DNA of 64,000 nucleotides from an uncultured Eubacteriales bacterium (GTDB lineage Bacteria > Bacillota > Clostridia > Christensenellales > CAG-138): the NCBI GenBank assembly GCA_902765005.1, contig CACWYB010000003.1, forward strand, positions 310,001 through 374,000, written 5' to 3'. The notes below the pieces were generated by a model, which was not told the origin of the DNA, did not search any database, and was given only the letters and a program-made list of their open reading frames with translations. Both the position numbers and the translations under genes were made by a program. Below, in pieces: positions 19,527 to 39,956 of this stretch; within the stretch, counting starts at the first letter, position 1; each line of letters opens with the position of its first letter.

Positions 19527-19748
19527 ATGAAAAAGCGGCCCCGCCTCCACTCGAGGGACGGAAGACCGCGGTGCCACCCTGATTAAGCGAAATTCGCTTC
19601 ACTCTTGCTCCTAACGCGAGCGCCACGGCGGGCCATTTCCTGCCCGCGGCTCCCGGCTGTCCTTCCAAGCGCCCCTGGCCGCCCGGCTTCCACCGCCCCG
19701 AACTCGCTGCCTGCCCTAAAACGCCTGTACTCTTCCGTTCAACGCCTT
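19527..19748 (-). promoter_or_regulatory. T-box riboswitch controlling hisS-aspS
   Basis: The minus-strand leader holds the invariant T-box AGGGTGGCACCGCG (about 19566-19579) just before a GC-rich hairpin and a CTTTTTC run (terminator). The 5' part has GAACGGAAGAGTA, the AGTA bulge typical of Stem I; CAGGCG after it can pair with CGCTTG on the 3' side, which places GAAGGACAG in the specifier loop. The likely specifier is GAC (Asp) at 19659-19661; His codons are not seen there. Uncharged tRNA would stabilise the antiterminator and allow transcription. Confidence 0.9.
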
Positions 19749-19754
19749 TGCAGT

Positions 19755-37429: not shown

Positions 37430-38035
37430 TCATTCCGGATCGGCCAGGGAAACGATCAGGTCCACGCACTTCTCGATGCCCAGCTTGCCGCTGTTCAAAG
37501 AGAGATCGTAGTTCCGGGCGTCGCCCCAGGTCCGGTCCGTAAAGTGCTTGTAGTTCACGGCGCGCTTGGTGTCCTTCTCCTTCAGGCGCACCTCGGGCTT
37601 CTTTTCGCTCTCGCCGTAGAGCCGGACGATCCGCTCGGCCTTGAACGCTTCGTCCGCGTGGATGAACACATGGAGGGCGTCCTCCCGGTCCTTGAGGATA
37701 TAGTCGGCGCACCGGCCCACGATCACGCAGGGGCCCTGCTCCGCCACCTCCAAGATGACCTTGCGCTGGACCACATAGAGGAAGTCGTACACGCTCATGC
37801 CCCCCATGGTGCCGTGGGTGCCGGTGTAGGTGGAGAGCAGGGACAGCAGGGATTTGCCGGGGGAATACTCCCCGTACTCCTCCACATAGTTGGGGTCGAA
37901 GCCGGTCTTCTCCGCCACGGTCTTGATGAGTTCCTTATCGTAATAGGGGTACCCCAGCCGCTCGGCCACGGCATGGCCGATGGTCCGGCCGCCGCTGCCG
38001 AATTCCCGGCTGATGGTGATGATCGTCTTTTTCAC
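37430..38035 (-). CDS. Cytidylate kinase-like family protein
   Basis: A 201-residue P-loop protein of the cytidylate-kinase-like family. The loop is ISREFGSGGRTIG, followed by GYPYYDKELIK, VIVGRCADYILKD and FIHADEAFKAERIVRLYG. The family's substrate is not established; it differs from true Cmk by the long insert after the P-loop. The frame is open from a TTG at 38053, but GGGAGGTG is placed 7 bases before GTG 38035, which I take as the start. It has its own promoter and terminator. Confidence 0.82.
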   Translation of the reverse strand: MKKTIITISREFGSGGRTIGHAVAERLGYPYYDKELIKTVAEKTGFDPNYVEEYGEYSPGKSLLSLLSTYTGTHGTMGGMSVYDFLYVVQRKVILEVAEQGPCVIVGRCADYILKDREDALHVFIHADEAFKAERIVRLYGESEKKPEVRLKEKDTKRAVNYKHFTDRTWGDARNYDLSLNSGKLGIEKCVDLIVSLADPE

Positions 38036-38096
38036 GAAGCGCACCTCCCGCAATAGTCTCGTTTGGAAGGACGGGGCCGCCCCCTCCTTCAGGGAT

Positions 38097-38126
38097 AGTA
38101 TACTTTTTTTCCGTGGTCAACGTCAA
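38097..38126 (-). promoter_or_regulatory. Promoter of the cytidylate-kinase-like gene
   Basis: TTGACG-N18-TATACT on the minus strand, directly after the terminator of the candidate RNA. Confidence 0.72.
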
Positions 38127-38132
38127 GGGGCA

Positions 38133-38361
38133 AGAAAAAAAGAACGGGCAAACCCGTCCTTTGAAAAAGAGCATCGGCACGTCGAAAGAGGGAATCGAGA
38201 TGCTTCAGAGACGACCTGGAGGGGTCGGGTCCAATGATTGAGCGATCAACTGGAGGAGGCAATCGTGGGACTCTTGCGTGCCGATGCTGTTTTCATCCCC
38301 TCGCCCCAAAGCGATGGATGAAAGAAAATGTCCCGCGCAGGCGTGCTTTGCGCGTGACACT
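38133..38361 (-). ncRNA. Candidate small RNA with CCUCC (anti-Shine-Dalgarno) motifs
   Basis: An intergenic minus-strand unit of about 229 nt with its own near-consensus promoter and a U-rich terminator (stem ACGGG/CCCGT then TTCTTTTTTTC, 38133-38156). No plausible ORF fills it. Predicted 5' to 3': hairpin CGCGCA/TGCGCG; hairpin TTTCATCC/GGATGAAA; an 11-pair stem GCATCGGCACG/CGTGCCGATGC (38277-38287 with 38170-38180) enclosing about 95 nt. That loop contains CCTCCTCC (38252-38259), CCCCTCC (38218-38224) and CCCTC (38188-38192). It does not match the cores of SRP RNA, tmRNA, RNase P or 6S RNA. Confidence 0.6.
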
Positions 38362-38367
38362 GCTGTC

Positions 38368-38395
38368 ATTGTAACAAACGGGTCACTCATGTCAA
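38368..38395 (-). promoter_or_regulatory. Promoter of the candidate small RNA
   Basis: TTGACA-N16-TACAAT on the minus strand. The remaining gap 38396-38478 is AT-rich and otherwise empty. Confidence 0.75.
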
Positions 38396-38525: not shown

Positions 38526-39956
38526 TCAGAGCATGTCCTTGAGCCGGGTCACGCTCTCCTTGGCGTCGCCGATGAGCAGCGCCACGCCCTCCGTCCGCTC
38601 ATACAGCGGGTTGGGCACGCCGGCATAGCCGGGGTTCAGGTCGAAGTTGCAGATGATCACGTTCTGGCAGTCGCCCACGTTCAGCACCGGCATGCCGTAG
38701 ATGGGCGTGCCCTCGGCGGTGTTGGCCGCCGGGTTCATCACGTCGTTGGCGCCGATGACCAAGGTCACGTCCGCGGCCTTGAAGTCGTCGTTGATATCCT
38801 CCATCTGGAACAGGTCCTCATAGGGGATATCCACCTCGCACAGCAGCACGTTCATATGCCCGGGCATCCGGCCCGCCACGGGATGGATGGCGAAGCGCAC
38901 CTGGGCGCCGTGGGCCTCCAGGGCATCCTTCAGCTCCCGGACCGCGTACTGGGCCTGGGAGAGGGCCATGCCGTAGCCGGGGACGATGATCACGTTCTTG
39001 GCGGCCTTGAAGGCGTCGAAGACCTGCTGCTCCACGGCGGCCTTGTCCACCGCGGGGGCTTCGGCTTTGGCCTCTTCCACAGGGGCTTCCGCCGGCTTCT
39101 CCTCCACGGGGGCCTCCGCCTTGGGGGCGGCGGACACGGTGGTGGCGCCGGTGAGGATGGCCGCCAGCTTCCGGTTCATGGCCCGGCACATGACCTCGGT
39201 GAGGATCAGGCCGGAGGCGCCCACGATGCCGCCCACCGCCACCAGCAGGGGCTCACCGATGGCCATGCCCGCAATGCCCCCCGCCACGCCGGACAGGGAG
39301 TTGAGGAGGCTGATGGTGATGGGCATATCCGCACCGCCAACCCGCAGCACGAACAGCCAGCCGAAGGCGCCGGCCAGGATCGCCGTGAGCAGGGTGAACA
39401 GGATCAGCATGCCGTTGTTCCCCTGGAAGAGCACCAGGGGGATGAGGCAAAGCACAGCCAGCAGGGCGCTGACGAGGATCAGGGCCTTGTGCCCTTTGAG
39501 GATCACGGGCCGCTGGTTGAACCACTTGGCCAGCTTCCCCGCCGCCAGGACGCTGCCCAGCAGGGTGACCATGCCGATGATGAGGGCGATGCCCGCGGTG
39601 ACCGCCTCAAAGGCGCCCACGGCCTTGCCGTCGGTGAGGGTGACCGCCGCCACCAGGGCGGAGGCCGCGCCGCCGAAGCCGTTGAGCATGGCCACGGTCT
39701 GGGGCATTTCGATCATCTTCACCCTTTTGGCCAGGATCGCCCCGGCGACGGCCGCCGGCACCAGGCCCACCAGGAGCCAGAGCCACTTGCCGCCAAAGTC
39801 ATAGCGGATCACGGTGAGGGCGATGGCCGCCGCCATGCAGGCGCAGGAGAGAAGGTTGCCCCACAGGGCGCTCTTCACCTTGCTCATCAGGGAGATGCCC
39901 AGCAGCACCAGCCCGGCCAGAACGATGCAGAGGATGTAGTACACGGAATCGATCAT
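38526..39956 (-). CDS. pntB: NAD(P) transhydrogenase subunit beta
   Basis: Membrane and NADP(H)-binding subunit of the proton-translocating transhydrogenase. The 476-residue protein has about nine helices in residues 1-270, then an Ala/Glu/Pro-rich linker (about 280-320), then the dIII domain with VPGYGMALSQAQ, HPVAGRMPGHMNVLL, GANDVMNPAA and the C-terminal DAKESVTRL. The enzyme couples proton flow to hydride transfer between NAD(H) and NADP(H). The ATG overlaps the preceding stop as ATGA. Confidence 0.95.
   Translation of the reverse strand: MIDSVYYILCIVLAGLVLLGISLMSKVKSALWGNLLSCACMAAAIALTVIRYDFGGKWLWLLVGLVPAAVAGAILAKRVKMIEMPQTVAMLNGFGGAASALVAAVTLTDGKAVGAFEAVTAGIALIIGMVTLLGSVLAAGKLAKWFNQRPVILKGHKALILVSALLAVLCLIPLVLFQGNNGMLILFTLLTAILAGAFGWLFVLRVGGADMPITISLLNSLSGVAGGIAGMAIGEPLLVAVGGIVGASGLILTEVMCRAMNRKLAAILTGATTVSAAPKAEAPVEEKPAEAPVEEAKAEAPAVDKAAVEQQVFDAFKAAKNVIIVPGYGMALSQAQYAVRELKDALEAHGAQVRFAIHPVAGRMPGHMNVLLCEVDIPYEDLFQMEDINDDFKAADVTLVIGANDVMNPAANTAEGTPIYGMPVLNVGDCQNVIICNFDLNPGYAGVPNPLYERTEGVALLIGDAKESVTRLKDML

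Follow-up and report, generated by a model that had tools for sequence, protein, structure and literature searches.

Introduction

Small RNAs of the UCCC type in Firmicutes, such as RsaE/RoxS, FsrA, LhrC, and the csRNAs, are intergenic transcripts composed of hairpins and a terminator, together with pyrimidine-rich segments. 6S RNA is about 200 nt in length and possesses a long closing stem, and CsrA is a well-known example of a protein that is sponged by RNA. According to a passage of PMC4132741, UCCC motifs block the Shine-Dalgarno (SD) sequence in several Gram-positive small RNAs (LhrC, RNAIII, RsaE, SprD, and FsrA), and the UCCC sites of LhrC are situated in loops and in a single-stranded stretch. 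A different arrangement, the terminator-embedded aptamer, is mentioned in a passage of PMC6429828 in connection with the thiS/HMP-PP candidates.

Here, an intergenic locus on the minus strand of a 64,000-nucleotide stretch of DNA from an uncultured Eubacteriales bacterium was analyzed (“the window” denotes this whole stretch). The original prediction had described it as a stand-alone RNA carrying several anti-SD seed sites and repressing translation in trans. Judged from sequence and its comparison among relatives, the locus at 38131-38395 is very likely a real RNA gene, and SD blocking by its C-rich motifs is predicted to be at best minor. In a literature search at the level of titles and the beginnings of abstracts, with partial coverage, no description of this RNA was recognized.

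The RNA Gene and Its Predicted Fold

The promoter TTGACA-N16-TACAAT, two 5′ hairpins, an 11-bp stem, and a terminator, as originally predicted, are all present on the minus strand between 38131 and 38395 (Table 1). The two promoter hexamers, located at 38395-38390 and 38373-38368, match the consensus at 11 of 12 positions, with an additional TG before the -10 element, and the columns TG-n-TA-n-AAT are invariant in all seven aligned loci. A scan of 2 kb detected 3 promoter-like sites per 2 kb where 0.5 would be expected; terminator sites numbered 4 against 2.4 expected in the same scan, so that the terminator alone is unremarkable. The start of the transcript was set 8 nt past the -10 element and its end at the second T run, or at approximately 38163 if the first T run is used. 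By eye, a hairpin comparable to the second terminator was observed among the relatives in L007 only. In the other five of the six relatives (L002-L006), P1 is directly followed by at least five T, indicating that P1 would also serve as the terminator stem there.

Table 1. Features of the RNA locus and its flanks, in window coordinates.
Feature	Position	Strand	Remark
NAD(P) transhydrogenase subunit beta (pntB), upstream	38526..39956	-	E 2.7e-103, below NCBIfam cut-off
-35 box TTGACA	38390..38395	-	invariant in 7/7 aligned loci
Extended -10, TG-n-TACAAT	38368..38376	-	spacer 16 in 7/7 loci
Predicted transcript, about 200-230 nt	38131..38360	-	sequence-based
5′ hairpin H1	38328..38360	-	clean hairpin; sequence variable among relatives
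5′ hairpin H2, directly before P1	38291..38323	-	clean hairpin; one predicted there in 7/7 loci
P1-closed domain (model R1): P1, P2, P3, P4 around junction	38171..38287	-	
P1 closing stem, 11 bp, GCATCGGCACG/CGTGCCGATGC	38287-38277 with 38181-38171	-	
P2 arms	38266-38259 + 38203-38195 (38195..38266)	-	
C-rich block CCUCCUCC (CCTCCTCC in DNA)	38252..38259	-	YYUCYUCC in relatives
P3 hairpin UCCAGUUGAU-CGCUCA-AUCAUUGGA	38230..38254	-	sequence nearly invariant
P3 hexaloop CGCUCA	38239..38244	-	invariant
P4 hairpin	38212..38227	-	variable sequence, covarying; window’s loop region contains CCCCUCC
CCCCTCC	38224-38218	-	
CCCTC	38192-38188	-	
Second terminator hairpin, then T run	38139..38162	-	terminator scan
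Kinase promoter TTGACG-N18-TATACT	38097..38126	-	separate from RNA promoter
Cytidylate-kinase-like gene, downstream	37430..38053	-	below NCBIfam cut-off for (d)CMP kinase

The minimum free energy calculated for the 230-nt strand is -90.7 kcal/mol, compared with a mean of -66.7 kcal/mol for dinucleotide shuffles (z -5.4), and not one of 200 shuffles folded as low. For the P1-closed domain, z ranged from -3.65 to -7.41 across all seven loci. P2 reads CGAUC/GAUCG in L002-L006 and is irregular in both the window and L007. A pseudoknot of the P3 loop was considered and rejected, its partner 5-mers being nearly absent from the seven transcripts: among GAGCG, TGAGC, and GTGAG only one occurs, in the transcript of L007.

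The conservation of this fold was evaluated on alignment A4. It can be observed that 95.3% of its 232 cells are paired, that 9 of 34 base pairs have changed on both sides, and that covariation scores 0.270, where shuffles give 0.161; for pairing, two-sided changes, and covariation alike, none of 500 shuffles reached the observed value; the structure was drawn from the same seven sequences and A4 fitted to it, so these counts lean towards the structure. When the register was slid, the paired share dropped to 22.6-41.5%. Another covariation measure, the number of further pair types, was not above that of shuffles, 354 of 500 of which reached it. RNAalifold, applied to an unfitted MAFFT alignment, independently recovered P1, P3, most of P2, and the core of P4, with 36 pairs of which 14 show changes on both sides. 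Covariation of the stems in related genomes, put forward in the original prediction as a check, is therefore present in the P1-closed domain, principally in P1 and P4, and H1 is variable. P3 hardly varies and thus contributes almost no covariation evidence, implying constraint on its sequence in addition to its pairing. Mean pairwise identity reaches 92.7% in columns 33-62, compared with 68.7% over the whole domain and 51.6% in P4. The comparison set is small, at seven sequences, and the P2 of the window itself deviates from the consensus.

The claim that the interval holds no credible open reading frame stands with one reservation. A frame of 61 aa (38390-38205) does overlap the RNA; its start lies inside the promoter, and the frame is not conserved, having other starts and ends in the relatives and codon changes that are mostly nonsynonymous. 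Two shorter frames cross the conserved block, LLQLIAQSLD in the sense direction (L001-L005) and MIERSTGG in the antisense direction (L001-L006). Relative to L002, over 12 codons, the sense frame shows 1 synonymous and 10 nonsynonymous changes and the antisense frame 1 and 15, respectively, and no ribosome site common to the core-crossing frames was seen by eye in the seven loci. A small protein was rejected on these grounds, since starts, ends, and flanking residues differ among the seven loci and the changes are mostly nonsynonymous. The sequence features expected of a stand-alone bacterial non-coding RNA, namely a conserved promoter and terminator, a covarying structure, and no conserved open reading frame, were found. 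Conservation in relatives supports this part of the original prediction, a structured RNA gene that has a promoter and a terminator to itself.

With regard to known families, no Rfam family matched the RNA at gathering score in a scan of the window. A search of 421 bases at E 10 yielded four matches (E 1.6-7), and a search of the six relatives yielded seven (E 0.72-4.1), all below the cut-offs; one of the seven, IRES_IGF2 (E 4), overlaps the RNA in L006. The Rfam/Infernal check for a known housekeeping RNA thus returned no family at its cut-off. 6S RNA (RF00013) was rejected as an identity: a separate 6S RNA is located at G000:C3:169767-169944 (63.6 bits), the RNA locus gave no 6S match even at E 10, and R1 gave no match at the 6S locus. 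Elsewhere in the window, a T-box leader at 19551-19751 (minus strand) reaches gathering score with 94.1 bits.

Distribution

A BLAST search with a 268-base query detected homologues in 7 of the 12 genomes of the genus, the window’s own included. In the first BLAST set, 8 of 61 genomes gave a match, which in G051 covered the terminator hairpin alone (query 233-265). The covariance model R1 found the same seven among 103 genomes of the family (E 1.4e-22 to 7.8e-12) and 4 of 396 genomes in a sample of the order, all within the genus; both of these searches were run with stricter filters, by which weak relatives may be missed. On the opposite strand, R1 scored 19.7-32.7 bits in six loci, compared with 105.5-119.8 bits in sense. 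Each of the seven genomes carries a single copy in a conserved gene order.

Matches outside the genus were obtained with pattern searches and did not survive inspection. In the order genomes, 7 of 396 matched, 4 of them in the genus; L014-L016 were judged unrelated by eye, and L014, the one of the three on which R1 was run, gave no match. A second scan of contigs returned nine loci, six of them from the genus; L019 and L021 match R1 only at the pattern stretch itself (19.5 and 13 bits, respectively), and L023 has no R1 match. A match in a viral contig looks coding by eye and is not matched by R1. Within the genomes searched, the RNA is restricted to the genus, and as judged from sequence it very likely represents a real RNA gene family, new in itself but familiar in kind.

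Within the genus, R1 found no RNA in G002, G003, and G004, in each of which the kinase locus was found, indicating that the genus can live without it. In G007 and G009, neither the kinase gene nor the RNA was found. Kinase trees place G002 and G004 among the carriers, and the most divergent member of the genus, G008, has the RNA; these positions suggest that the RNA was lost, with low support at several nodes. The genome of the window itself is 77% complete.

The Conserved Hairpin P3 and Its Possible Partner

The stand-alone RNA is probably trans-acting. The explanation that we prefer, in which our confidence is evenly balanced, is that of a stand-alone, genus-restricted structured small RNA whose working part in trans is P3. 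A strong, conserved promoter of the sigma-A type would drive an RNA with two 5′ hairpins and the P1-closed domain; the scaffold, kept by compensatory change, would hold P3 out on the junction, and contact would be made by the near-invariant P3, through the exposed CGCUCA loop together with the CUCC junction next to it. Accessibility was calculated as the joint unpaired probability in predicted folds of the transcript, the second terminator being excluded. The P3 loop was open at 0.82-0.99 in five of the seven folds and at 0.42 in the other two (L004 and L005), and in all seven it was more open than the whole C-rich block. P3 is regarded as the recognition element because its sequence is fixed and its loop is exposed to this extent.

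Any such action would proceed without Hfq or CsrA. Neither was found in the 12 genus genomes, of which 4 reach 90% completeness with contamination no higher than 5%; the controls were positive in 5 of 14 genomes for Hfq and in 3 of 14 for CsrA.

The form of this explanation that we rank first, tentatively, is base pairing with an RNA target that would begin at the loop. Genes were called in two genomes with a hexamer script written for this analysis, which gave 332 genes in 377 kb of the first and 363 in 400 kb of the second, and pairing was scored over 222 reciprocal-best orthologue pairs from these 777 kb, about 16% of each genome. The 60 shuffles for comparison were built from the segment of the window only and applied to both genomes. 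For the 31-nt core, 37 of 60 shuffles equaled or exceeded the best site and 29 the top ten; for the loop region, the corresponding numbers were 36 and 22. Given the coverage of about 16%, this null result makes a broad effect less likely, though not a single target. The loop complement TGAGCG occurs at -10 to +20 in 9 of 330 and 10 of 362 genes, a count that is unexceptional mainly because the ATG start codon supplies TG: 11 and 13, respectively, of the 256 TGNNNN hexamers, TGAGCG included, equal or exceed it.

A search of the 12 genomes for the complement of an 18-nt core, allowing up to 3 mismatches, returned 17 places, distributed over 11 genomes; 7 of these places are the RNA itself. The other 10 sites, where the reversed pattern gave 1, represent six distinct sequences, of which one is present in four genomes, another in G001 and G006, and the remaining four at a single place each. 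The first, GATTGGGCCAACAACTGG, has 3 mismatches to the core complement and occurs in G000, G002, G004, and G007 (L116, L108, L105, and L113, respectively), in the last three of which R1 finds no RNA; in L105, L108, and L113 it is situated deep within one long reading frame that the three have in common. The second is the only site confined to two carriers, which are closely related, and also falls under long open frames. The longest open frames at these two shared sites span 245-378 codons, and consequently no regulatory site is seen there.

In its second form, which is unlikely when taken singly, the preferred explanation would have P3 and the junction dock a protein, the RNA serving as sponge or scaffold. 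P3 is fixed in the sequence of both stem and loop, whereas P1 and P4 mainly keep their pairing, and the searches for pairing targets gave none. At about 27 nt, the invariant stretch exceeds the usual seed of a small RNA in length, and therefore fits protein binding as well. Domains of the KhpA/KhpB type (KH_KhpA-B) are present in 12 of 12 genus genomes; these include, however, the genomes in which the RNA was not found. A CsrA sponge would need CsrA, which was found in none of the 12, several of them incomplete. The data do not discriminate between an RNA target paired by P3 and a protein docked on it. Cutting across this division, a new RNA family in which P3 and the three-way junction bind a ligand or a protein, either as a kinase-linked terminator-embedded aptamer or as a protein-docking RNA, is unlikely. 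A small part of the probability, about as much as for protein docking, falls to explanations other than those discussed here.

C-Rich Motifs and SD Sequences

The original prediction placed the activity of the RNA in its C-rich motifs, as a trans-acting repressor pairing CCUCC segments with SD sequences, and this we consider distinctly unlikely. CCTCCTCC, CCCCTCC, and CCCTC are indeed all present in the window. CCCCUCC and CCCUC each occur in only one of the seven predicted transcripts, that of the window. For two of the three motifs, the relatives therefore show the lack of conservation that the original prediction had named as refuting it. The third is kept as YYUCYUCC in 7 of 7 loci, with an exact CCUCC in 6, and L003 has an additional CCUCC in its 5′ part. 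UCCC is absent from the conserved block and is found elsewhere in 6 of the 7 transcripts, at differing positions; L007 keeps the RNA and yet has neither CCUCC nor UCCC.

Exposure in the predicted folds likewise argues against this role. The last UCC of the C-rich block forms the 5′ strand of the near-invariant P3 stem, and pairing with ribosome sites, if any, would require P3 to open. The whole 8-nt block was open at 0.0001-0.11 in the seven predicted folds and the C-rich motifs confined to the window at 0.0001-0.0086. The last CCUCC was open at 0.56 in L004 and L005, where it exceeds the P3 loop, and at no more than 0.14 elsewhere; the most open of the other 5-nt parts tested reached 0.24 (L006). 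In an SD-blocking small RNA the C-rich motif is expected in an accessible loop or single strand, and the predictions place only the last CCUCC, in two of the seven folds, in such a position.

Potential partners for such a motif are abundant. GGAGG was located upstream of 123 of 330 genes, where 20.7 would be expected, and of 132 of 362 genes in the second genome, over a third in each case, so that CCUCC by itself, as a seed, would discriminate poorly among genes. In the pairing test described above, the C-rich block performed slightly better than the average shuffle, with 13 of 60 shuffles matching or beating its best site and 11 its top ten. Target prediction against start regions, also suggested originally, therefore gave no clear excess over the 60 shuffles in the 222 orthologue pairs. 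The several anti-SD seed sites are not supported, being mostly unshared or closed and not clearly superior to shuffles in pairing.

Genomic Neighborhood and a Role in cis

The gene order around the RNA is pntB, a putative nucleoside hydrolase (named from its sequence alone), the RNA, and the cytidylate-kinase-like gene, which is the downstream neighbor in all seven RNA loci. Upstream of the RNA, both pntB and the hydrolase match in L002-L005, and the fetched stretch of L007 (G008) matches the hydrolase and not pntB. In the window’s genome and G010 (L006), no hydrolase match is observed beside the RNA, and pntB is directly upstream. G002, G003, and G004 have pntB, the hydrolase, and the kinase gene without the RNA.

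The constancy of the kinase gene raises a further explanation, that of a cis-acting, terminator-embedded, aptamer-like element controlling read-through into it. Consistent with this, the conserved junction sits in a terminator stem in L002-L006 (P1 followed by at least five T). The kinase gene, however, has its own conserved promoter in all seven carriers and in G003, which lacks the RNA, and this separate promoter renders a role in cis for the kinase less likely. Moreover, a second terminator hairpin is present in the window and in L007, and the RNA possesses a strong promoter and its own 5′ hairpins. Overall, we regard the cis-acting element as very unlikely.

The kinase promoter is in itself strikingly conserved, being found at 8 of the 10 kinase loci identified in the genus. 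It is absent in G002 and G004, which are without the RNA and in which the kinase gene lies close behind the hydrolase.

Finally, a chance structure or decaying element without function, for which the absence of the RNA from three genus members with a kinase locus might speak, is highly implausible in view of the covariation, the near-invariant core, the conserved promoter, and the single copy in conserved order in seven genomes.

Implications and Comparison with Known Systems

The present analysis provides a well-supported RNA gene family without an Rfam match in a genus of gut Clostridia known here from metagenome-assembled genomes, in which regulation by small RNAs would need to operate independently of Hfq. 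Its reach is limited, as it is restricted to the genus and absent from three relatives, and the search found no candidate partner; the conserved P3 hairpin offers a concrete place at which to look for one. More generally, C-rich stretches recognized by eye are not seeds by default: in this case, conservation and predicted accessibility favor another segment of the same RNA.

In size and in its long closing stem, the RNA resembles 6S RNA, from which it differs in having no match to RF00013. It resembles the thiS/HMP-PP candidates, as far as the passage of PMC6429828 describes them, in having a conserved junction in a terminator stem upstream of a gene; unlike the candidates described there, its downstream gene has its own promoter and is preceded by terminators. 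With RsaE/RoxS, FsrA, LhrC, and the csRNAs, it shares the form of an intergenic Firmicutes RNA with hairpins, a terminator, and pyrimidine-rich segments. Unlike that of LhrC, its motif is YYUCYUCC, which lies partly within a near-invariant hairpin and is predicted to be mostly closed.
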